NCBI RefSeq assembly: GCF_003207825.1
Contig: NZ_NKTY01000001.1
Location: forward strand, 1-64,000
Length of the DNA: 64,000 bases
DNA from: Komagataeibacter saccharivorans
GTDB taxonomy: Bacteria > Pseudomonadota > Alphaproteobacteria > Acetobacterales > Acetobacteraceae
Direction: 5' to 3'
The notes below the pieces were generated by a model. It was not told the DNA's origin. It saw only the letters and a program-made list of their open reading frames with translations, and did not search any database. A program made the translations under genes and the position numbers. Of this stretch, positions 22,137-36,196 are shown piece by piece; within the stretch, counting starts at the first letter, position 1; each line of letters starts with the position of its first letter.

Positions 22137-22928
22137 TCATCCGCGGGGCGCCAGAAGCACCTCGCCCGTTACGACCCGGACCGGGCCGGACGCCGTGTGC
22201 AAAAGCAGGATTCCATCATCGGCCAGACCTGCAAAAGTGCCGCTGAACTGCCGGTTTCCTGCCTTTACATCAATCTTTGTGCCTACCGGATGCCCGCGTT
22301 CAAGCCATGCCGTGCGGATTGCCCCAAACCCCTGCGCCGCATGACAGGCAAGCCAGCCATCCAGCCTGCGCAGCAGAACCTGCGCCATGTCGGGGGCAGT
22401 CGGCACATCCCCCCCGCATTCAGCCAGACAGGCCACATCCCGACCGGCGATAACAGGCGCACAGCGCAGGTTCGCCCCCATTCCGATAACCTGCCAGGCG
22501 ATACCTCCGGCGCTGCCGGTCTCGATCAGGATACCCGCCATCTTGCGGCCATCCAGCAGCAGATCATTGGGCCATTTCAGTTCCAGCCGGTGCCCGGCAG
22601 GCAGAAAATCCGCAACCGCGTCATACAGCGCAAGCCCCGCGATGAATGGCCACAACCCCACAGGCACATCATCCGCCCCCTGCCCCATCAGCATGACGGA
22701 CAGGGCCAGATTGCCACCGGGATCGGACCATTCCCGCCCCCGGCTGCCACGCCCCGCAGTCTGCTTCAGGGCCAGGATCGCGACACCGTTGGCGCCCTGC
22801 CCCGCATCCAGCCGCTCCCGGCACAGATCCGATGTCGATCCCAGCCGGTCATGCACCTCCAGCAGCCACGCCCCACCACCCATGCGGGGAATGGAACGGA
22901 TGGAAGGACGGGCCGGGATATGGGTCAT
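22137..22928 (-). CDS. birA: Biotin--[acetyl-CoA-carboxylase] ligase (monofunctional BirA)
   Basis: 263 residues. The biotin-binding motif GRGSRGREWSDPGGNLALS and the catalytic block LKWPNDLLLDGRKMAGILIE are clear. There is no N-terminal helix-turn-helix domain, so this is a ligase without repressor function. It attaches biotin to the BCCP subunit of acetyl-CoA carboxylase. The ATG lies three bases after the nuoN stop, and the ribosome binding site AGGTAAAGC is inside the nuoN end, so translation is coupled to the complex I operon. Confidence 0.93.
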   Translation of the reverse strand: MTHIPARPSIRSIPRMGGGAWLLEVHDRLGSTSDLCRERLDAGQGANGVAILALKQTAGRGSRGREWSDPGGNLALSVMLMGQGADDVPVGLWPFIAGLALYDAVADFLPAGHRLELKWPNDLLLDGRKMAGILIETGSAGGIAWQVIGMGANLRCAPVIAGRDVACLAECGGDVPTAPDMAQVLLRRLDGWLACHAAQGFGAIRTAWLERGHPVGTKIDVKAGNRQFSGTFAGLADDGILLLHTASGPVRVVTGEVLLAPRG

Positions 22929-22931
22929 GCT

Positions 22932-24356
22932 TTACCTGAACAATGCGGAAGCCGCCGCCTGTGCCGCCGTGGCGACGGGACCAAGCCCCACCACGAAGAA
23001 CACCGTCACCAGCCCCATTCCCACTGACACGAACGAGACGGAAACAGGAGACCGGTCCAGCGCCGGGACGGCGGTATCAAAGAACATGACCTTGACGATG
23101 CGGATGTAGTAGTACGCCCCGATCACGCTGCTTACGATACCGATTGCAGCCAGCGCGTAAAGATGCGCGTTGATCGCGGCATAGAACACCATGAGCTTGC
23201 CAAAGAACCCGGCCAACGGCGGCGCCCCGGCCATGGAGAACATGAATATCGCCATCGCCAGCGCCATGCCGGGGTCCGTACGGCCCAGACCGGCCAGATC
23301 GCTGATACGGGTTACGGCGCGGCCATTGCGGCGCATGGCGACAATGCCCGCAAATGCGCCGACATTCATGAACAGGTATGTCACCAGATAGACCAGCGTG
23401 CCACGCGTGCCTTCCGCCGTACCGGCGGCCATGCCGATCATGGCGTAACCCATATGCCCGATGGAGGAATAGGCCATCAGCCGCTTGATGTTCCCCTGCG
23501 GGATCGCCGCCAGCGAACCGAATACCATGGAAAGGGCGGATACCACTTCGATCAGCAACTGCCATTGTGGCGTCATGCTGCCGAAGGGACCGGCCATGAC
23601 ACGCAGCAGCACGGCGAAGGCCGCGATCTTGGGCGCGCCGGCCATATAGGCGGTCACCGATGTGGGGGCACCCTGATATACATCCGGCGTCCACATATGG
23701 AACGGCACCATCGACAGCTTGAAGCACAGCCCCACCAGCACGAACACGATGCCCACCATAAGGCCCGCAGGCAGCACGGCGCTGCCACGCACGGCCTGTT
23801 GCAGACCCGCATATTCCAGCGTCCCGGCAAAGCCGTAAGCCAGTGAAATGCCATAGAGCAGGATGCCCGACGCGAGCGAGCCAAGCACAAAATACTTCAG
23901 CCCCGCTTCAGCCGCCCCCACCCGGTCACGCGCGAAGGCGCACAGGATGTAGATGGACAGGGACGAAAGCTCCAGCCCCACAAACAGCGTCATGAGATTG
24001 CCAGAGGACGCCATGATCATGGCCCCCAGCGTGGAAAACAGGATCAGCACCGGGAATTCGAACTTGTCGATTTCCATTTCGCGCGCATAACCCACGCTCA
24101 GCACCAGTGACAGTGCCGCGCCCGTCAGGCTCAGCACCTTCATGAAGCGGGCAAAGCCGTCATTGATGAAAACATGGCTGTAGCCCGTGCCATCGGGCGA
24201 AATTACGACAAGCACCCCCGTCACGACAAAGGCCAGCAGCGTCATCATCGCGCAGGAAAAGAAAGCCTGCCCACGCTTCTGCATCACCCCGGCCAGGAGG
24301 ATGGCCAGCCCCGACAGGGCCAGCACGATTTCAGGCAGAGCAAGTGTCCAGTTCAT
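22932..24356 (-). CDS. nuoN: NADH-quinone oxidoreductase subunit N
   Basis: 474 residues with about 14 membrane helices; an antiporter-like proton-pumping subunit of complex I. NuoN hallmarks are LELSSLSIYILCAFARDRVGAAEAGLKYFVLGSL (residues about 125-160) and the pumping core GLCFKLSMVPFHMWTPDVYQGAPTSVTAYM. I chose the ATG at 24356 (MNWTLALPEIVLALSG), preceded by AGGG. An ATG at 24374 adds six residues but has AAGG directly against it. nuoL ends at 24383, so there is no room for nuoM, which normally lies between the two. The protein itself looks complete. Confidence 0.95.
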   Translation of the reverse strand: MNWTLALPEIVLALSGLAILLAGVMQKRGQAFFSCAMMTLLAFVVTGVLVVISPDGTGYSHVFINDGFARFMKVLSLTGAALSLVLSVGYAREMEIDKFEFPVLILFSTLGAMIMASSGNLMTLFVGLELSSLSIYILCAFARDRVGAAEAGLKYFVLGSLASGILLYGISLAYGFAGTLEYAGLQQAVRGSAVLPAGLMVGIVFVLVGLCFKLSMVPFHMWTPDVYQGAPTSVTAYMAGAPKIAAFAVLLRVMAGPFGSMTPQWQLLIEVVSALSMVFGSLAAIPQGNIKRLMAYSSIGHMGYAMIGMAAGTAEGTRGTLVYLVTYLFMNVGAFAGIVAMRRNGRAVTRISDLAGLGRTDPGMALAMAIFMFSMAGAPPLAGFFGKLMVFYAAINAHLYALAAIGIVSSVIGAYYYIRIVKVMFFDTAVPALDRSPVSVSFVSVGMGLVTVFFVVGLGPVATAAQAAASALFR

Positions 24357-24382
24357 CGGTATTGGCCCTGACATCCTTGGGG

Positions 24383-26323
24383 TTAGCGGTAAAACAGCAT
24401 GGTGGACAGTAGCACCACCAGGCCGATCAGCATGGAAAAGGCGTAAACCGCGATGGAGCCGGTCTGGACCCGCACCGCCTGTCCCGCACTGCCGGATGTC
24501 AGGCGGGCCAGTCCTTCGGGAATGGCCTCGATCACACCTTCATCCGCGCCCTTCCACAACAGGCGTGCAAGGGCACGGTACGGGCGGATGATCGCCACAT
24601 CATACAGTTCGTCGAAATACCATTTGTTCAGCAGGAACAGGTAAAGCGGCCGCAGGCTGCGGGCGAGTGCCCCAGGAATACCGGGGCTTGCCACGTAGCA
24701 GACATAGGCGACCGCAATACCCAGCACGGCTGCGAATGTCGGCACCAGCGCGATGAAGCCCGGCGTCTGTTCAAGACGGTCGATCACGGACTGACCGGGC
24801 ACACCGGCAATCGCCCCATTCCAGAATGCCGCATGACGCGCGCCGATATACAGCGGTTCCAGCGCCAGACCGGCCACCACGGCACCGAAGGACAGCAGCA
24901 CGACCGGCAGCATCATGGATGGCGGGCTTTCATGCGCGCCTTCATACAGATGCCCGTCACGCGGCCGGCCATGAAACACCAGAAAGATCAGGCGCCAGCT
25001 ATACAGCGCGGTCAGGAACGCGGTGATGCAGCCCATAAGCCAGCCATAATGGCCCATGCCATTACCCGACATCCATGCGGCCTCAAGGATCGCATCCTTG
25101 GACCAGTACCCGGCAAAGGGGAAGATACCCGCCAGCGCAAGGCTGCCGATCCACATGGCAATGTAGGTCAGCGGGATCTTGCGCCACAGCCCGCCCATGC
25201 GGAACATGTCCTGTTCATCGTGAACGGCATGGATCACGCAGCCCGCGCCAAGGAACAGCAGCGCCTTGAAGAACGCATGTGTGGTCAGGTGGAACATGGA
25301 CGCCTGATAGGCCCCTACACCCACCGCCACGAACATGTAGCCAAGCTGCGAACAGGTGGAATAGGCGATCGTGCGCTTGATGTCAGGCTGCACCAGCCCC
25401 ACCGTCGCGGCAAAGAAGCTGGTTGTTCCACCGATCAGCACGATCAGGTCGCGCGTGACGGGGGCAAGTTCCACCAGCGGCGACATCCGCACCATAAGGA
25501 AGATGCCCGCCGTCACCATGGTCGCGGCATGGATCAGGGCGGAAACCGGGGTCGGTCCCTCCATCGCGTCAGGCAGCCATGTATGCAGGAACAACTGCGC
25601 CGACTTACCCATCGCGCCGATGAACAGCAGCGTCGCGATGACTTCCAGCAGCGGATGCGTGCCAAAAAGCTGGAACGTGTCGTTCACATGTGCAGGCAGG
25701 GCGGCAAAGATGTCATCATAGGACACGCTGCCCAGACGGATGAAGATGAGCGAGATGCCGACAAGAAAGAACAGGTCCGCCACGCGGTTGACCACAAATG
25801 CCTTGATGGCGGCGGCACAGGCGGACGGACGGTCGTACCAGTAGCCAATCAGCAGGTAACTCGCCAGCCCCACCCCTTCCCAGCCGAAGAAGAGCTGGAG
25901 CAGATTGTCGGACGTAACCAGCATGAGCATGGCAAACGTAAACAGCGACAGATAGGAGAAGAAGCGGAAAACCGGCCTGCTCTCATGCGCCATGTAACCC
26001 ACGCTGTACACATGCACCAGCAGGGAGACCACCGTGACCATGGCCACCACGCTGACCGACAGCGCATCCATGCGCAGTTGCCAGTCCGCCCGGAAACCCG
26101 CCGCATGGACCCAGTCGGCCACGGGCACGATAACCGTGTTCATGCCGCCGCCCATCTCGAACCCCAGCACGCCGATCGCGGCAAGTGCCGCACACGTCAT
26201 GAAGGCGATGGTCGTGAAACGCGCGGCCCCGTCCCCCATAAGGTGACCGAAGCACCCGGCGACAAGAAACCCGATCAGGGGCGCGAACACCGCCACTTCA
26301 AAAAGGAAGGATGCTGTCTGCAT
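24383..26323 (-). CDS. nuoL: NADH-quinone oxidoreductase subunit L
   Basis: 646 residues, full length for NuoL, with about 16 membrane helices including the C-terminal lateral helix and final anchor (VYAFSMLIGLVVLLSTMLFYR). The antiporter-like core is intact: FFGWEGVGLASYLLIGYWYDRP, FIGAMGKSAQLFLHTWLPDAMEGPTPVSALIHA and TIAYSTCSQLGYMFVAVGVG. It is the distal proton-pumping subunit. The ribosome binding site AAGGA precedes the ATG. There is no sign of fusion to NuoM: the C-terminus is the normal NuoL tail. Confidence 0.96.
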   Translation of the reverse strand: MQTASFLFEVAVFAPLIGFLVAGCFGHLMGDGAARFTTIAFMTCAALAAIGVLGFEMGGGMNTVIVPVADWVHAAGFRADWQLRMDALSVSVVAMVTVVSLLVHVYSVGYMAHESRPVFRFFSYLSLFTFAMLMLVTSDNLLQLFFGWEGVGLASYLLIGYWYDRPSACAAAIKAFVVNRVADLFFLVGISLIFIRLGSVSYDDIFAALPAHVNDTFQLFGTHPLLEVIATLLFIGAMGKSAQLFLHTWLPDAMEGPTPVSALIHAATMVTAGIFLMVRMSPLVELAPVTRDLIVLIGGTTSFFAATVGLVQPDIKRTIAYSTCSQLGYMFVAVGVGAYQASMFHLTTHAFFKALLFLGAGCVIHAVHDEQDMFRMGGLWRKIPLTYIAMWIGSLALAGIFPFAGYWSKDAILEAAWMSGNGMGHYGWLMGCITAFLTALYSWRLIFLVFHGRPRDGHLYEGAHESPPSMMLPVVLLSFGAVVAGLALEPLYIGARHAAFWNGAIAGVPGQSVIDRLEQTPGFIALVPTFAAVLGIAVAYVCYVASPGIPGALARSLRPLYLFLLNKWYFDELYDVAIIRPYRALARLLWKGADEGVIEAIPEGLARLTSGSAGQAVRVQTGSIAVYAFSMLIGLVVLLSTMLFYR

Positions 26324-26328
26324 TTTCC

Positions 26329-26652
26329 TTACCCCTTCATCATCGTGATATCGTCGACTTCGATCGAGCCGCGATTACGGAAATACACCGTGACAATGGC
26401 CAGACCGATGGCGGATTCCGCCGCGGCGATGGTCAGCACGAACAGGGTCATCACCTGCCCCGACAGGTCGCCGGTAGCCGCTGAAAACGCCACGAAATTG
26501 ATATTGGCCGAAAGCAGGATCAGCTCGATCGACATCAGGATGATGATGACGTTCTTGCGGTTCAGGAAAATGCCGAACACGCCCAGAACCAGCAGGATCG
26601 CGCCAACACTCAGGTAGGGCGCAAGGCCGATCCCCTCAATCGCGCTATTCAT
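26329..26652 (-). CDS. nuoK: NADH-quinone oxidoreductase subunit K
   Basis: 107 residues with three membrane helices. The two conserved membrane glutamates of NuoK lie in [19 protein letters not shown] and in [17 protein letters not shown]. The ATG at 26652 overlaps the nuoJ stop by eight bases. It encodes a small proton-path subunit of the membrane arm. Confidence 0.95.
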
Positions 26653-27418
26653 CGTCCTGTCCTTTCGCGCCTTGCGCCGGGGTAATGACCACCAGCGCGG
26701 TTTGTGTCTGTTCCGCAGCCTCGCGCGCACGCCATGCTTCCGTCCCGTAGGTGCCGGGCACGGCGGCGACATCGTAGCTGTCATGCGGGCGCAGGAAGCC
26801 GCCCTGTGCCGCGACCCCGGCCCCCAGCGGCACCTGAAGCATTTCAAGCGATTCCTGGGGTATGCGGTCGTGCTGGCGGTCGATGTTCTGCCTGCGGCCC
26901 GTCGGGCGGTCGCGCAGGGTCAGCACGATCGCGCCGATCATGGCCACCAGCAGCACCAGCGCGCAGGTCTGGAACAGGAAAATATAGTGGGTGTAGAGCA
27001 CATCCCCCAGCGCCGCCGTGTTGGTCCGGGTGGGCGAGGACGGAACCAGATGCGTGATCTGCCCGATATTGCCCGCCACGCGCCAGTGGGTGAACGCCAT
27101 GATGAGTTCCACCAGCAGCACGCCACCAACCGCAGCCCCGATCGGGGCGTAACGCTGCACGCCTTCACGCATCTGCGCAAAGCGGACATCAAGCATCATG
27201 ACCACGAACAGGAACAGCACCGCGACCGCGCCGACATAGACAATAACCAGCGTCATCGCCAGGAATTCGGCCCCCGCGATCAGGAACAGCCCCGCCGCGT
27301 TGAAGAACGCCAGAATCAGGAACAGCACCGAATGCACGGGGTTACGGGCGCACACCACCATGGTGGCGGACAGGACCAGAACCGCCGCGAAAACGTAAAA
27401 GACGATTTGGGTCATCAT
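26645..27418 (-). CDS. nuoJ: NADH-quinone oxidoreductase subunit J with extended C-terminus
   Basis: 257 residues; typical NuoJ proteins have about 170-200. Five membrane helices are present, with the conserved [26 protein letters not shown] segment. After LTLRDRP (about residue 175) comes a long polar tail of about 80 residues containing [25 protein letters not shown] and an Ala/Gln-rich end. The ATG at 27418 follows GGAAG at the right distance. The 78-base gap to nuoI (27419-27496) is the largest in the operon. Confidence 0.93.
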
Positions 27419-27496
27419 GGGTGAGCTTCCTGCCGCATGGATGTTTCCTCCTGCTGGCATGGCGGCCACGGCCTGCGCGCGGTCCGCCGTGCGGTA

Positions 27497-27985
27497 TCAG
27501 CGGTACGGGGCATCAAGCTCGAGCCTGCGGGCGAGAACGCTTTCCCAGCGGTCGCCATTGGCCAGAAGCTTGTCCTTGTTGTACATAAGTTCTTCGCGGG
27601 TTTCGGTCGCGAACTCATAATTCGGCCCTTCGACAATCGCATCGACCGGGCAGGCTTCCTCGCACAGGCCGCAATAGATGCACTTGGTCATATCAATGTC
27701 GTAGCGCGTGGTGCGGCGGGAGCCGTCATCGCGCGGTTCGGCCTCGATGGTGATGGCTTCCGCGGGGCATGTCGCCTCGCACAGCTTGCACGCAATGCAG
27801 CGTTCTTCCCCGTTGGGGTAGCGGCGCAATGCGTGTTCGCCACGAAAGCGTGGCGAAAGCACGCCCTTTTCATAAGGGTAGTTGATCGTGGCCTTCGGCT
27901 TGAAAAACGCCTTCAGCGTCACGCTCATGCCCGCCACCAGTTCGGACAGCAGCATGGAGCGGGCGGCCTTGCTTAATGTACCCAT
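27497..27985 (-). CDS. nuoI: NADH-quinone oxidoreductase subunit I (two [4Fe-4S] clusters)
   Basis: 162 residues. Two ferredoxin motifs bind clusters N6a and N6b: [12 protein letters not shown] (Cys63, 66, 69, 73) and [12 protein letters not shown] (Cys102, 105, 108, 112). The start ATG shares its first base with the nuoH TAA stop (TAATG), so translation is coupled. It links the hydrophilic arm to the membrane arm. Confidence 0.97.
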
Positions 27986-29007
27986 TAGCCTGCTCCTCCG
28001 GGCAGAAGGCCCGTTACCATCAGGAATCCCGCGCTCAGCACCATCCACGCCAGCGAGAATGGCAGGAACACCTTCCACCCCAGCCGCATGAGCTGGTCGT
28101 AGCGATAGCGGGGGAATGTCGCGCGCACCCAGATGAACACGAACAGGCAGAACAGGATCTTGGCGATCAGCCACAGCGGCCCCGGTATCCATGTAAAGGG
28201 CGCGATGCCCAGCGGCGGCAGCCAGCCGCCAAGGAACAGGATGCTGACCATGCCGGACATGAGAAACATGTTCGCGTATTCGCCCAGAAAGAACAGGCCG
28301 AATGCCAGGGCTGAATATTCGACGAAGAAGCCCGCCACCAGTTCGCTCTCGCCTTCCGGCAGGTCAAAGGGCGCACGGTTGGTCTCGGCCAGCGCCGAGA
28401 TGAAAAACACGATGAACATCGGGAACATCGGCAGGCAGAACCAGACATGGCGCTGCGCCAGCACGATGTCATTGAGGTTGAGGCTGCCCACCGCCAGCAG
28501 GACCGATACGATCACCAGCCCGATGGACACTTCATACGACACCATCTGCGCCGCCGAACGCAGCCCGCCAAGAAACGCGTATTTGGAATTGGACGCCCAG
28601 CCCGCGATCAGGATGCCGTAAACACCCAGCGAGGAAATCGCCAGCAGATACAGGACACCCACATTGATGTTGGCGATGGCCAGCCCGTTCCCCGTGGGGA
28701 TCACCGCCCACGCCACCATGGCCAGCGAGAAGGTCAGGAACGGCGCGAACAGGAACAGCATCCTGTTTGCACCAGACGGGATGACCGTCTCCTTCGTCAG
28801 CATCTTGATCGCATCGGCGAAAGCCTGCAGCACGCCGAACGGGCCGTTTACATTCGGCCCCTTGCGCAACTGCATCGCGGCCATGACCTTACGTTCGGCC
28901 AGGGTCAGATACGCCACGCCCAGCAGCAGCGGCACCAGCACCGCCAGGGATTCCAGCACGATCAGCAGGATCTGGCCGATGACGGTATGAAAGAAGAAAT
29001 CAGCCAT
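27985..29007 (-). CDS. nuoH: NADH-quinone oxidoreductase subunit H
   Basis: 340 residues with eight membrane helices. It carries [25 protein letters not shown] at the quinone-chamber loop, [21 protein letters not shown] and the C-terminal [26 protein letters not shown], all invariant in the family. This subunit forms much of the quinone-binding chamber. The ribosome binding site GGAGTAGGG precedes the ATG, five bases after the nuoG stop. Confidence 0.97.
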
Positions 29008-29011
29008 GTCC

Positions 29012-31078
29012 CTACTCCGCAGCCTCGATGGCGGGGTGCACGTAAATCCCCGAACAGGTTTCCATGGTCGGACTGGCGCGGCACACGGCGTGGGTCAGGT
29101 AATAATCGGATATGACCGGCCGAAGCGGCGCATCCGACACCGGAACCGTCCCCGCATCGGGTGCCGTGGTGTCCGATGTGCCATGGCGGCTCCATGCCGC
29201 ATGCCCGAATACCGGGCTGGCCTGCACCATGCGCGCGCGCAGGGCTTCCAGCGTATCGTACGGCAGTTTGCGGCCCGCCACTTCGGAAAAGGCCCGCAGG
29301 ATGCGCCAGTCTTCACGCGCATCACCCGGCGGCATGACCGCGCGGAACGCTTCCTGCACGCGCCCTTCGGTATTGGTGTAGGTGCCCGGCTTTTCCGCAT
29401 AAAGCGTGCCCGGCAGGATCACATCCGCCCGCGCGGCACCCGCATCGCCATGATGCCCCTGATAGACGACGAAGGTTTCCGGCCCGATACGATCGGTCGG
29501 GAACTCGTCCGCGCCCAGCAGCCACAGCACGTCAACGCCGCCATCCAGCATGCCCGCGACATCACGCCCCTGTGGGCCGGGCAGGAAACCAAGATCCAGC
29601 CCCGCCACCCGGCTTGCCGCCGTATGCAGGACATTGAACCCATGCCAGTCCGGGCTGATCGCCCCGACCTTCGCCGCCAGATCCCAGCATGCACGCGCAA
29701 TCGCCTGCCCGTCCGGGCGGGTCAGCGCACCATGGCCGACAATGATCATCGGTTTTTTTGCGCCCGCCAGCACATCGGCAAACGGATGCGTGCCGTCGGC
29801 AAGGGCCGCCAGCGCGTCCGGCCCCTGCCCCAGCACATCCACTGCGTATGTCGGATCGGCATTGGGCGCGCCGATCATGCCGATGGGAAAACCACCCCGG
29901 CCTGCCGCAAGGTAGCGTTTACGGATACGCGCATTCAGCACGGGCGCTTCCTGCCGGGGAATGGAGCCTACGATCAGCAGGGCATCCGCATCCTCGATCC
30001 CGGCGATACCTGTGTTGAAAGTATAGAAGTCCCGGCGTGAAGTATCGTATTTCGCCCCGTCCTGACGGCAGTCAATATTGGGCGAACCCAATGTTTCCAT
30101 CAGATCCTTCAGCGCCATCATGCTTTCCGCATCGCACATGTCGCCCGCGATCGCGCCGATACGCTGGCCCGGCACATCCTTCAGCCGTGTGGCGATGGTG
30201 GCGAACGCATCCTGCCAGCTTGCGGGCTGGAGCCTGCCATCCACCCGCACCCAAGGCCGGTCCAGACGGCGGCGGCGGAACCCGTCCACAACAAAGCGCC
30301 CCTTGTCCGCCAGCCATTCCTCGTTCACTTCGTCATTGATGCGCGGCACGATGCGCAGCACGGCGGCCCCACGGGCCTGCATGACGATATTGGTGCCTAC
30401 CGCGTCGCACACATCGATTGAATCCGTGCGCTTGAGTTCCCACGACCGCGCGGTAAATGCGTAAGGCTGCGAAGTCAGCGCACCGACGGGGCAGATATCG
30501 ATCAGGTTGCCCGACAGTTCGGATGTCAGGGCCTTTTCAACATAATTGGTGATTTCCAGATTTTCCCCGCGCGAAATACCGCCCAGTTCCGGAACGCCCG
30601 CGATTTCGGTGGAAAACCGGATGCAGCGCGTACACTGGATGCACCGTGTCATGACCGTCTTGACCAGCGGGCCAAGATACTTGTCCGTCACCGCGCGCTT
30701 GTTTTCATGGTAACGGGTATGGTCCGCGCCATAACCGAATGCCTGATCCTGCAGGTCGCATTCGCCGCCCTGATCGCAGATCGGACAGTCAAGCGGGTGA
30801 TTGATCAGCAGGAACTCCATCACCGCGCGGCGGGCGCGACGCACCACCTCCGTATCGGTGAAGATCTGCATGCCTTCGTTTATGGGAAACCCGCAGGAGG
30901 CGACTGGCTTGCGCCCGCCCGAGACCTCGACCATGCACATACGGCAGTTGCCCGCCACCGACAGGCGTTCGTGATAACAGAAACGCGGGATTTCCTTGCC
31001 CGCCGCCTCACACGCCTGAAGGGCGCTGGAACCTGCCGCGACCTCGACGGGAATACCGTCAACGGTTACTTTCACCAT
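29012..31078 (-). CDS. nuoG: NADH-quinone oxidoreductase subunit G
   Basis: 688 residues. The N-terminal domain carries the [2Fe-2S] ligands Cys34, Cys45, Cys48 and Cys62, then the His94/Cys98/Cys101/Cys107 set ([14 protein letters not shown]) and the Cys146/149/152/196 set (CIQCTRC…CPVGA) for [4Fe-4S] clusters. A long molybdopterin-oxidoreductase-like domain follows and is probably structural. The extra N7-type ligand set of E. coli is not obvious. A ribosome binding site GGAGTAGGA precedes the ATG. Confidence 0.96.
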
Positions 31079-31083
31079 TGTTC

Positions 31084-32409
31084 CTACTCCGCCGCTTCAT
31101 TCATGCCAGCCGGAACCTGTACGGTCCGGCTACCGCCATGCGCCGCCTTGTAGGCGTGGATACGTTCTTCCATCACCGGGCGGAAACGGCGGATCAGCCC
31201 CTGGATCGGCCATGCCGCCGCATCGCCCAGCGCGCAGATGGTGTGTCCTTCCACCTGCCGGGTGACCTGCTCCAGCATGTCGATTTCCTCGATTTCCGCG
31301 CGGCCCTGCACCATGCGGTCCATGATGCGCATCATCCAGCCCGTGCCCTCGCGGCACGGCGTGCACTGGCCACAGCTTTCATGCTTGAAGAATTTGGAGA
31401 ACCGCGCGATGGCCGCGATGATATCGGTGGATTTGTCCATCACGATCATGCAGCCGGTACCGAGGCCGGACCCCTCGGCGCGCAGGCTGTCGTAATCCAT
31501 CAGCACGTTTTCACACACGTCACGCGGCAGCATGGGTACCGAACAGCCGCCAGGTATGACCGCCAGCAGGTTATCCCACCCGCCGCGCACGCCACCGCCA
31601 TGCTTTTCGATGATGTCCTTCATCGGGACACCCAGCTCCTCCTCAAACACGCAGGGCGTGTTGACGTGACCCGATATGGCCATGAGCTTGGTACCCGCGT
31701 TGTTGGGCCGCCCCAGCCCGGCGAACCATGCCGCGCCACGGCGCAGGATGGTGGCGGAAACTGCAATGCTTTCCACATTGTTGACCGTAGTGGGGCAGCC
31801 ATACAGCCCCATCGCCGCCGGGAAAGGCGGCTTCATGCGCGGCTGGCCTTTCTTGCCCTCAAGACTTTCCAGCAGGGCGGTTTCTTCCCCGCAGATATAG
31901 GCACCCGCGCCGCGATGGATATAAAAGTCGAAATCCCAGCCCGACCCGCAGGCGTTCTTCCCGATCAGTCCGGCTTCATATGCCTCGTCAATGGCATGCT
32001 GGAGATGACGGGCCTCGTTATAGAATTCGCCACGGATATAGATGTAAGCCGTATGCGCACCCATGGCGAAAGAGGCGATCAGCGCGCTTTCCACCAGCTT
32101 GTGCGGGTCATGGCGCAGGATTTCGCGGTCCTTGCAGGTGCCGGGTTCCGACTCATCGCCATTGATGACCAGGTAATGCGGTCGCCCATCATTCTTTTTG
32201 GGCATGAACGACCATTTGACGCCGGTGGGGAAACCCGCCCCGCCCCGGCCACGCAGGCCGGACGCCTTCATCTCGTTAATGATGGCATCGCGCCCGCGCG
32301 CCAGTATCGCGCCCGTATTGTCCCAGTCGCCGCGGGCACGGGCACCTGCCAGCTTCCAGTCATTCTGGCCATACAGGTTGGTAAAGATGCGGTCCTTGTC
32401 CTGAAGCAT
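31084..32409 (-). CDS. nuoF: NADH-quinone oxidoreductase subunit F (NADH/FMN site)
   Basis: 441 residues. [16 protein letters not shown] (51-66) is the NADH/FMN loop, [14 protein letters not shown] (84-97) binds flavin, and Cys346, Cys349, Cys352 (ESCGQCTPC) with Cys392 bind cluster N3. The ATG at 32409 is preceded by GGAGTAAGG; a longer frame upstream has no family similarity. It is the entry point of electrons from NADH. Confidence 0.97.
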
Positions 32410-32413
32410 GACC

Positions 32414-33064
32414 TTACTCCTGCCCCTGCGGCTTCTGCACCGCATCTTCGCGCAGGACCTTGCGTCCACCCGCCGGGGCGCAGGCCATGCGCGCGATGGT
32501 CGGGCCGGGCGTGGGCCGTTCGCCCCGGCGCAGGGCCTCGATCAGTTCAAGCGTGCGCGGGCCGTCCAGGTCCTCGTAATAATCATCGTCAACCTGCAGG
32601 ATCGGGGCGTTGGAGCATGCCCCCAGACATTCGACCTCGGTCAGGGTGAACAGGCCGTCCTTGCTGGTTTCGCCAAAACTGGTGATGCCGGTAGCCGCCT
32701 TACACGCCGCCGTTACATCATCCGAACCACGCAGCCAGCATGACGTGGTGGTGCAGACCTGCAGGTGATACCGACCGATCGGGGTGGTGTTGAACATGAG
32801 GTAAAAGGTCGCGACCTCGTAAACCCGGATCGGCGCCATTTCCAGCCGTTCGGCCACCACATCCATGGCCACGCGGGGTATCCACGCGCTGCCGGTCGCG
32901 CGGCCCATCTGTTTCTGCACGATATACAGTAGCGGCAGCACCCCGCTTGCCTTGCGCTCGGGCGGATATTTGGCAAGGACCGTGGCGATCTGGCGCTCAC
33001 TGTCCTCATCAAATGCGAAATGGGTCGGTTCCGCGCCCTGTGGCGCGTCGGATTGGACGGACAT
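32414..33064 (-). CDS. nuoE: NADH-quinone oxidoreductase subunit E
   Basis: 216 residues from the ATG at 33064, which has AGGTGA at a good distance; a GTG three codons earlier is also possible. The thioredoxin-like [2Fe-2S] domain has Cys104, Cys109 (CTTTSC), Cys146 and Cys150 (CLGAC), the N1a ligand pattern. The C-terminal tail of about 60 residues is polar. It starts five bases after the nuoD stop. Confidence 0.95.
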
Positions 33065-33069
33065 GTCGG

Positions 33070-34326
33070 TCACCTGTCAATCTCGCCAAAAACCAGATCC
33101 AGCGATCCGATAATGGCCACGGCATCAGCCAGCATGTGCCGGCGCGACATCTCGTCGATTGCCTGGAGATGGGAAAAACCCGTGGGCCGGATCTTGCAGC
33201 GATACGGCCGGTTGCTGCCATCGGCCACCAGATACACGCCGAATTCCCCCTTGGGGGTTTCGGTTACGGTGTAAGTAGCGCCCGGCGGCACGTGATAGCC
33301 TTCGGTAAACAGCTTGAAATGATGGATCAGCGCTTCCATGGACCGCTTCATCTCGCGCCGTGGCGGGGGCGTGATCTTGTGGTCCTGCACCTTGACCGGG
33401 CCGGGACGGATCTGTTCCAGACACTGCCTGATGATGCTGACGCTTTCGCGCATTTCCGCCACACGGATCAGGTAGCGGTCGTAGCAATCACCCTGCCTGC
33501 CGACCGGCACGTTGAATTCCACCTTGGCGTAATTGTCATAGGGCTGGCTGCGCCGCAGATCCCACGGCACGCCCGAAGCCCGCAGGCATGGGCCACTGAA
33601 CCCCCAGGCCAACGCCTGTTCGGTCGTGAACACGCCAATGCCAACCGTGCGCTGTTTCCAGATGCGGTTGTTGGTCAGAAGCGATTCCAGATCGTCGATC
33701 CAGCGCGGGAAGGTCGTGGCCCAGTCCGCGATACGCTCTTCCAGCCCGGCGGGCAGGTCACGCGAGACACCGCCGGGACGGACATAGTTGGCGTGGAAAC
33801 GCGCGCCGGACGCTGCCTCATAAAACTCGAGCAGCTTTTCACGTTCCTCATACCCCCACAGCGCAGGCGTCAGTGCGCCACAGTCCAGCCCGAAGGAGGT
33901 CAGGTTGAGGATATGATTCAGAATGCGCGTGATCTCGGCAAACATGACGCGTATCCAGCGCGCGCGGTCCGGGGCCTCGATCCCCAGCAGCTTTTCAACC
34001 GCCAGCGCGAAGGCCTGCTCCTCACACATGGGGGAGACGTAGTCGAGCCGGTCGAAATACGGCAGCGCCTTGGGATAGGTCTTGTATTCGATCAGCTTTT
34101 CCGTGCCGCGATGCAGCAGGCCGACATGCGGAATGGCACGGGCGACAACCTCGCCCTCCATTTCCAGCACAAGCCGCAGCACGCCATGCGCGGATGGATG
34201 CTGGGGACCGAAATTAAGCGCGTGGGAATCAATTTCCACCACATGCCGCCGCACTTCGCCGGTATCGTCCTCCGGCAGGAGTGAGTCGGGAACAGCGGCA
34301 TCGCTACGAAGGGTTACGTCGCTCAT
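33070..34326 (-). CDS. nuoD: NADH-quinone oxidoreductase subunit D
   Basis: 418 residues. The quinone-site motif [21 protein letters not shown] and [28 protein letters not shown] are present, together with the C-terminal [10 protein letters not shown] end found in the 49-kDa family. Separate nuoC and nuoD genes occur here, unlike the fused E. coli form. It lies seven bases after the nuoC stop. Confidence 0.97.
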
Positions 34327-34333
34327 CTGTCGC

Positions 34334-35005
34334 CTACCCCTGTCGTTTCATGTTCTGGCGGCTGGCATGCGCCTTTTCATCGCCCGGCAGGGTCAGGATT
34401 CCCTCCCATGGCGATTCAAAATCGAAATTGCGGAAGTCCTGCACCAGATCGACGGGTTCATAGACAACCTGACGCCGTTCGCTGTCGTACCGCATCTCCA
34501 CATATCCGGTCAGCGGGAAGTCCTTGCGCAGCGGATGCCCTTCGAAGCCGTAATCGGTCAGGATGCGCCGCAGGTCGGGCTGATCGGTAAACAGGATACC
34601 GAACAGGTCGTAGGCCTCGCGCTCCCACCATGTCGCGGCGGGCCAGATCTGGTGCACTGACGGGACGGGAGCCGTCTCGTCAGTGGTCACGATCACGCGG
34701 ATACGGTGGTTATGGGTAACGGACAGCAGGTTGTAGACTACATCGAACCGTTCAGGCCGGTCGGGAAAGTCCACGCCGCAAATGTCCATCACCTGCTGGC
34801 AGGCAAATTGCGGATCGTCACGCAGCATGAGCATGAGCGCCAGCAGCCGGTCGCGTGTGGTGCGTACCACCAGTTCGCCCTTTTCCAGACCGGCGGAAAT
34901 AATGCCCGGAACCCGTGTGGACAGGTGGAAGGTGATGGCCCCCAGCCCACCCGACACTGCGTACGGCACCACCGCCGATGGGGACGTGTTTGCTGGTTCA
35001 GCCAC
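34334..35005 (-). CDS. nuoC: NADH-quinone oxidoreductase subunit C
   Basis: 223 residues. The 30-kDa signature [39 protein letters not shown] is intact. The start is a GTG at 35005 that overlaps the nuoB stop by eight bases. It is a structural subunit of the hydrophilic arm next to NuoD. Confidence 0.96.
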
Positions 35006-35576
35006 GGCGTATTGTCCCTGTCCTACGAATTTTCTTCTGAAGCTGCATGATGCCGTAGATCAGCGCTTCCGCCGTGGGCGGGCAGCCGGGCACATACACA
35101 TCAACCGGCACGATCCGGTCACAGCCCCGCACGACGGAGTAGGAATAGTGGTAATACCCGCCCCCGTTGGCGCATGACCCCATGGAGATGACCCAGCGCG
35201 GTTCGGCCATCTGGTCGTAAACCCGGCGCAGCGCGGGGGCCATCTTGTTGGTCAGAGTACCCGCTACGATCATCACGTCCGACTGGCGGGGCGAACCGCG
35301 CGGGATGATGCCCATGCGATCCAGATCGTAGCGCGGCATGTAGGCGTGGATCATTTCCACCGCGCAGCAGGCCAGCCCGAAGGACATGGGCCACAGGCTG
35401 CCCGTCCGGCCCCAGTTCACCAGTTTGTCGAGATTCGCGACCACGAAGCCCTTTTCGGTAATCTCGCCCGTGATGCCCTTGATTACGGCGTCCTGCTCCG
35501 CCCCCGGCGGCAGCATTTCACGATTCCAGGCGATGCTGTCCGCAGGCCGACCAGGCCCGGATGTATCGTTGCCCAT
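34998..35576 (-). CDS. nuoB: NADH-quinone oxidoreductase subunit B (cluster N2)
   Basis: 192 residues. Cluster N2 ligands are Cys70-Cys71 (GLACCAVEM), Cys135 (MGSCANGGG) and Cys165 (VPGCPPTAE). The ATG at 35576 has GGAGG seven bases upstream; the ATG at 35597, almost touching the nuoA stop, lacks a ribosome binding site. N2 passes electrons to quinone. Confidence 0.96.
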
Positions 35577-35599
35577 TGGTGCGCCTCCGCTTGTCATGC

Positions 35600-35965
35600 T
35601 CAATCCCAGTCCAGCGCGCCCTTGCTCCATTCATAGATGAAGCCAACCACCAGAACGCCCAGAAAACCCATCATGGACAGGAAACCAAACCACCCGATCC
35701 GCGATAGACTCATTGCCCATGGGAAGAGGAATGCGACCTCAAGGTCGAAAATGATGAACAGGATCGCGACCAGATAGAACCGCACATCAAAGCGGTGGCG
35801 CGCATCATCAAAAGCCTCGAAACCGCATTCGTAAGCCGACGTTTTTTCGGCATAGGGTTTCTGGTGGCCAAACAGCAGCGAACTGCCCAGCATCGCGCCA
35901 GCGATGACCACCGCAATGCACCCGAATATCAGCACGGGCAAATAATCAGTGATAACGGGATGCAT
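35600..35965 (-). CDS. nuoA: NADH-quinone oxidoreductase subunit A
   Basis: 121 residues with three membrane helices. The conserved loop [47 protein letters not shown] contains the redox-sensitive Cys and the membrane-border acidic residues. The ATG at 35965 gives the usual N-terminus [14 protein letters not shown]. It is the first gene of the operon; the 230 bases upstream (35966-36195) should carry the nuo promoter and hold no other gene that I can see. Confidence 0.95.
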
Positions 35966-36196
35966 GTTCCGTGTTCCCAACCTGTTAAGAAGCCATCTGC
36001 GTGTCTTTATCGACTTATGTGTGGCTTCGGGGATGCTAGACCCAACGTGGTGCAGGGAACAGTTACTTAACCGTGTTCTTTCAGGAACATTACTGTGAGG
36101 ATAGATACAGGACCGGATACGTCAATATTGCGTGAATATTTGTTTACGCACGGTTTATTGTTCTCATTTTCCCGTGTGCCACCTGATTGAAGGCAC

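Follow-up and report, generated by a model that had tools for sequence, protein, structure and literature searches.

Very probable relocation of nuoM from the nuo operon to a separate site downstream of mutL in acetic acid bacteria

In a genome of Komagataeibacter saccharivorans, nuoM is missing from its usual place between nuoL and nuoN, and we conclude with high confidence that the gene has been relocated and not lost. In the stem lineage of the acetic acid bacteria (AAB), a nuoM for the alphaproteobacterial-type complex I would have become established separately, downstream of mutL; the operon copy would have been lost, bringing nuoL next to nuoN, and the detached gene would have been inherited ever since within AAB. 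The detached NuoM would join the thirteen operon-encoded subunits, completing a complex I of the ordinary kind whose three antiporter-like pumps are N, M and L, and such a three-pump complex is by far the best reading of the data. Both the copy-then-loss route and the assembly in trans into the complex of the operon considered here are what we infer from the observations below.

The nuoL-nuoN junction and the nuoM gene on another contig

The analysed stretch of 64,000 nucleotides, hereafter the window, carries the nuo operon on the minus strand. The nuoL gene (24383..26323) encodes a complete protein of 646 aa. The open frame of nuoN (22932-24374, 480 aa) reaches position 24374, but the start at 24356 (MNWTLALPE..) is the one conserved among relatives; most of the other AAB nuoN loci compared either lack the ATG at 24374 or have it out of frame. 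With nuoN thus assigned by conservation to 22932..24356, the junction, which in related operons is the place of nuoM, is a spacer of 26 bases (24357..24382), leaving no coding room for a third antiporter-like subunit between nuoL and nuoN. Hence the initial annotation, which had reported nuoM as missing here, was exact to the base. It had also described the operon as otherwise undisturbed, and indeed all twelve subunits nuoA-L were found in the window by open reading frames and tblastn queries, with nuoK to nuoA, the remaining operon, at 26329..35980. The gene following nuoN (22137..22928, minus strand), initially labelled birA, is also situated 3' of nuoN in relatives.

Each of the two proteins flanking the junction matches its own NCBIfam model: NuoL has 773.5 bits with NF005141 (cut-off 556), and NuoN, 593.0 bits with NF004440 (cut-off 519). 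Thus both are full-length, as originally stated, and a NuoM fused into either of them is ruled out by these end-to-end matches and the normal protein lengths.

An assembly deletion between nuoL and nuoN could be suspected, given that the genome is a draft of 107 contigs. However, the comparison of relatives shows nuoL directly followed by nuoN in all 22 AAB nuoN loci examined, the two genes overlapping slightly at one extreme and being about 80 bases apart at the other; besides, a detached nuoM is seen in all of the best 80 of 121 named loci described below, two of which come from records with "complete" in their titles (Gluconacetobacter diazotrophicus PA1 5 and Commensalibacter melissae). 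The junctions of the relatives and these loci rule out an assembly deletion, the probability of which we consider negligible. The short stretch before nuoN had been proposed as a possible deletion scar. We observed CCCCAAGG at the junction in three of the four genomes of the window's genus and CCCCAGGG in the fourth, and CCCCAAGG is absent from the junction in the other 18 AAB loci; the scar was discarded, as the junction string is confined to this genus.

A search of the whole genome with PF00361 yielded six antiporter-like genes. Two are the window's nuoL and nuoN; three (nuoL, nuoM and nuoN) belong to a second operon, located on contig C15; the sixth, on contig C19, is a full-length detached nuoM (G000:C19:42310-43851, or L008:9310-10851) encoding 513 aa, with scores above the cut-offs of both the equivalog NF004499 (592.7 bits, cut-off 585) and TIGR01972 (553.7 bits, cut-off 263.8). 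Two NuoMs of the genome, those of C19 and C15, exceed the TIGR01972 cut-off, and the four L and N genes fall below it. One more region outside the window (G000:C28:140351-140827) shows a weak antiporter-subunit match of 29 bits, under the same NuoM cut-off. Judged by its sequence, the C19 gene product is an alphaproteobacterial NuoM; its best named relative is from Komagataeibacter intermedius (96% identity).

The C19 nuoM stands alone, 133 bp 3' of mutL and followed by convergent parE, both neighbours being named MutL and ParE by NCBIfam. It does not occupy the usual place of the gene in the nuo operon between nuoL and nuoN; this gene order is a usual feature and does not define the NuoM protein. 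The L, M and N antiporter-like subunits of one lineage are all encoded in the genome, L and N in the window and M on C19.

The initial annotation had left two readings, that nuoM had moved elsewhere or that two pump subunits suffice for the complex, and the search of the genome for a NuoM homologue is decisive in favour of the former. Loss of nuoM, with complex I running on two pump subunits, would agree with the window operon itself lacking the gene; however, a full, conserved and selected NuoM is encoded elsewhere in the genome, and the NuoM protein has been detected in Acetobacter pasteurianus, according to the available part of a proteomics report (PMC10742644). A two-pump complex I is therefore highly improbable, being ruled out by nuoM on another contig.

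In the second nuo operon (L007:2890-17477, on contig C15), nuoC and nuoD are fused, and nuoL, nuoM and nuoN are all present. Its NuoCD, NuoG, NuoL, NuoM and NuoN were named by NCBIfam, the NuoN match being below the cut-off. As the genome has such a gamma-type operon with its own NuoM, the latter might serve the window operon, the detached NuoM doing something else. Yet this NuoM shares 38% identity with its alphaproteobacterial counterpart on C19, and in many AAB that carry both the operon and the detached nuoM no second NuoM is seen; genomes G135, G184, G169, G040 and G173, for example, yield one NuoM match each at 1e-60. We regard such a substitution as very unlikely.

Distribution and genomic location of the detached nuoM

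Among 200 sampled genomes of the family, 24 carry a NuoM with at least 62% identity to that of the window's genome, and in all 24 the gene and nuoN are on different contigs or hundreds of kilobases apart. The detached nuoM is present in all 24 sampled AAB genomes having the operon and in none of the 21 lacking it, the absence of this operon type being judged at E 1e-60, one weak second-type NuoN match apart. As these 21 genomes form one sub-clade, the absence of both nuoM and the operon may reflect a single joint loss. In the ParE tree (61 rows, covering 61 of the 200 sampled genomes), 23 of the 24 genomes with the detached nuoM fall, together with the 21 operon-less ones, in one clade of 44 (support 100/98); the remaining genome, G122, is outside this tree.

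Elsewhere nuoM is located between nuoL and nuoN. This order was observed in 6/6 other loci of the family (L040-L045), in 11/11 loci L229-L239 and in 22/23 loci of the class (L116-L138), the exception (L138) having nuoL-nuoM with no nuoN match within the stretch examined.

A profile of 17 detached NuoMs produced a further set of named loci, the best 80 of 121, which partly overlap the 24 genomes and are biased by the query, as an in-operon nuoM is poorly detectable with a detached one. The set includes Komagataeibacter, Novacetimonas, Gluconacetobacter, Acetobacter, Ameyamaea, Commensalibacter, Endobacter, Lichenicoccus and other genera, and in none of these 80 best loci of 121 were nuoL or nuoN found near the detached nuoM in the stretches examined. 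In plasmids, 147 records contained NuoM-like matches, all with identity below 60%; plasmid-borne Nuo subunits in Komagataeibacter saccharivorans have been described in the available part of PMC12361115. On this comparison of loci we conclude that the detached arrangement belongs to AAB, and that the gap in the operon is real and old.

The location of the gene is also largely conserved. In 65 of the same 80 loci (best of 121) mutL is upstream of nuoM on the same strand, and in 54 of them the two genes are no more than about 200 bases apart; of the other 15, three have parE only and 12 have neither mutL nor parE. These 12, some being on short stretches, are mostly from Acetobacter (L160, L161, L163, L179, L183, L186, L187, L202, L206, L208 and others), which suggests that in Acetobacter nuoM has moved again. 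The order tRNA synthetase-lspA-mutL, the gene before lspA being a class I tRNA synthetase by Pfam, exists without nuoM in genomes G100, G157 and G067; therefore nuoM is the newcomer at mutL. In the operon-less genome G046, mutL adjoins parE and nuoM is absent.

The spacer between mutL and nuoM (L008:9177-9309) contains a conserved non-coding block, consisting of CATAATGTGAGCG and CTGGATT. Among the aligned sequences, CATAATGTGAGCG is exact in 10 of 11 from Komagataeibacter and has two changes in the eleventh; it is altered in both Novacetimonas sequences, and CTGGATT following it is conserved. This block is a candidate promoter or operator of the lone nuoM. At up to three mismatches CATAATGTGAGCG is not enriched in the window (15 matches, 18 expected), and none of its matches there is upstream of nuoA. 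An operator common to nuoA and nuoM is thus unsupported.

Signs of function

In E. coli NuoM the residues thought to carry protons are E144/K234, K265, H322 and E407, according to the available part of PMC9271201. Their equivalents E151, K230, K261, H318 and E403 are retained in all 22 detached NuoMs, and the same five residues are kept in both extra NuoM copies of the non-AAB genus g100, considered below. The detached NuoM has the Glu/Lys ion pair, the central Lys, the bridging His and the distal Glu, the latter position being occupied by Lys in NuoL and NuoN. Three genomes (G011, G102 and G159) contain solo nuoM paralogues (L244, L245 and L246) beside a normal operon copy. In all three of them the central lysine K261 is replaced by Asn, and therefore these paralogues may not pump.

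Between the window's genome and G060, dN/dS is 0.066 for nuoM, 0.066 for nuoN and 0.080 for the compared part of nuoL. By this estimate nuoM is under purifying selection equal to that of nuoN.

Proteomics data for A. pasteurianus, as given in the available part of PMC10742644, list ratios of 0.62, 0.33, 2.16 and 1.78 for NuoM (gene number 1610), 0.93, 0.31, 2.22 and 2.12 for NuoN (gene number 3354), and 0.29, 0.11, 2.07 and 2.15 for NuoD (gene number 3345). The text places NuoM among the subunits lowered in one condition, and the NuoN ratio of 0.93 is not called a change. Hence others have shown that in A. pasteurianus NuoM is made and varies much like the operon subunits, this being a correlation only and from another genus. 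By its sequence features, the detached NuoM looks functional.

Origin of the detached NuoM and comparison with known systems

In the genus g100, two one-contig genomes of about 2.7 Mb contain both an operon nuoM and a nuoM of the detached type. The extra gene (L078:9284-10816 and L076:9143-10579) lies between an unnamed gene and gluQRS, before the latter and not at mutL. We considered two alternatives: either nuoM left the operon in the AAB stem lineage and diverged fast, a copy of it reaching g100, or a diverged paralogue common with g100 replaced the operon gene.

Under the second alternative, the detached NuoM would be a diverged paralogue or an acquired copy of the g100-extra type that replaced the operon gene upon its loss and still works in complex I. 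In its favour, three trees unite the detached NuoMs with the g100 extra copy in a single clade at 100/100 support, and the extra copy has 12 of 19 signature columns of the detached type, whereas the g100 operon copy has none of the 19. Approximately unbiased (AU) tests, for which the groups were picked after the trees were seen, reject the grouping of the detached NuoMs with the g100 operon NuoM (p 0.003), a recent duplication inside g100 (p 0.0002), and the grouping of the detached NuoMs with the operon NuoM of G043/G080 with the extra copy outside (p 9e-46). However, a clade of the detached, g100 extra and G043/G080 operon NuoMs is not rejected (p 0.446), and in the tree of the 13 subunits other than NuoM the AAB operon is sister to that of G043/G080; therefore the gene could have left the operon and diverged rapidly before being passed on to g100. 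The detached NuoMs are set apart from the g100 copy with support of only 74-96, and the branches are long. Replacement by a paralogue is thus possible, although we rate it somewhat below even chances.

Several properties of the trees bear on these comparisons. The 13-subunit tree is a quick one (LG+G4, SH-aLRT only), in which 8 of 29 rows lack some early subunits; it supersedes the NuoL+NuoN tree, which also puts G043/G080 nearest to AAB. The ParE tree instead puts g96/g24/g68 nearer to AAB (97/87), and this disagreement with the operon-subunit trees makes any species order near AAB tentative. The first NuoM tree drew on 14 of the 23 loci of the class (L116-L138); the second omitted the second-operon NuoM, the duplicate L113 (the same gene as L234) and the long row L122; the later ones, including that of the test with p 0.446, also omitted the g96, g68/g24 and solo rows, L235, L118 and L121. 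The grouping of the detached clade with the operon NuoMs of g96, g68 and g24 was lost once those rows were omitted; it raises a long-branch worry, and we do not rely on it. The stem of the detached and g100 extra NuoMs is 0.36 to 1.0 long, compared with AAB stems of 0.12 for the other 13 subunits and 0.27 for NuoL+NuoN, although the present constraint on nuoM, as seen from dN/dS, is normal.

A tentative scenario, to which we assign a little over one chance in three, is that the ancestral middle pump of AAB gave way to a paralogue that diverged fast and was encoded at another site, both NuoMs having coexisted for a time; g100 would then be a surviving intermediate and may assemble two complexes I differing only in NuoM. 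Relocation of nuoM as such, our preferred reading, provides an old natural case of a core subunit of a large membrane complex being supplied by an unlinked gene, and g100 is a candidate two-NuoM intermediate for studying subunit replacement. The remaining interest lies in the origin of the detached NuoM and in this genus.

The bare fact of the split between nuoM and the operon is already in print: a 2016 genome paper on A. pasteurianus SKU1108 gives nuoM apart from the operon, as seen in the available part of PMC5158111. In the corresponding part of a paper on Asaia bogorensis (PMC4596401), nuo operons were counted and a tree was built from nuoHIJKLN, with nuoM left out. The literature searched, with most subscription papers outside it, yielded no discussion of the extent or origin of the relocation; within the same scope, neither the pattern across the clade nor the long stem branch of NuoM nor the two-NuoM genus g100 was found in print. 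Surveys based on gene clusters could score AAB as having an incomplete operon, and the relocation explains why; it also removes a false "two-pump complex I". In the available part of PMC12361115 Nuo hits are grouped within 250 bp, which, by our own reasoning, would leave the detached nuoM out.

Among solved structures the best match of the detached NuoM is the Paracoccus NuoM (PDB 8qby chain M; E 1.5e-128, residues 12-494), and the Paracoccus-type alphaproteobacterial complex I consists of the subunits encoded by the window operon together with NuoM. In loci of the alphaproteobacterial class nuoM is situated between nuoL and nuoN (22/23), whereas in the window's genome it is unlinked. The gamma-type operon on C15 likewise encodes NuoL, NuoM and NuoN, as well as a fused NuoCD, but its NuoM is distant (38%), and its nuoM is inside the operon. 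A parallel in arrangement is A. pasteurianus SKU1108, where, in the part of PMC5158111 available, nuoM is likewise listed apart from the operon, with no comment on it and no mention of its extent or origin.
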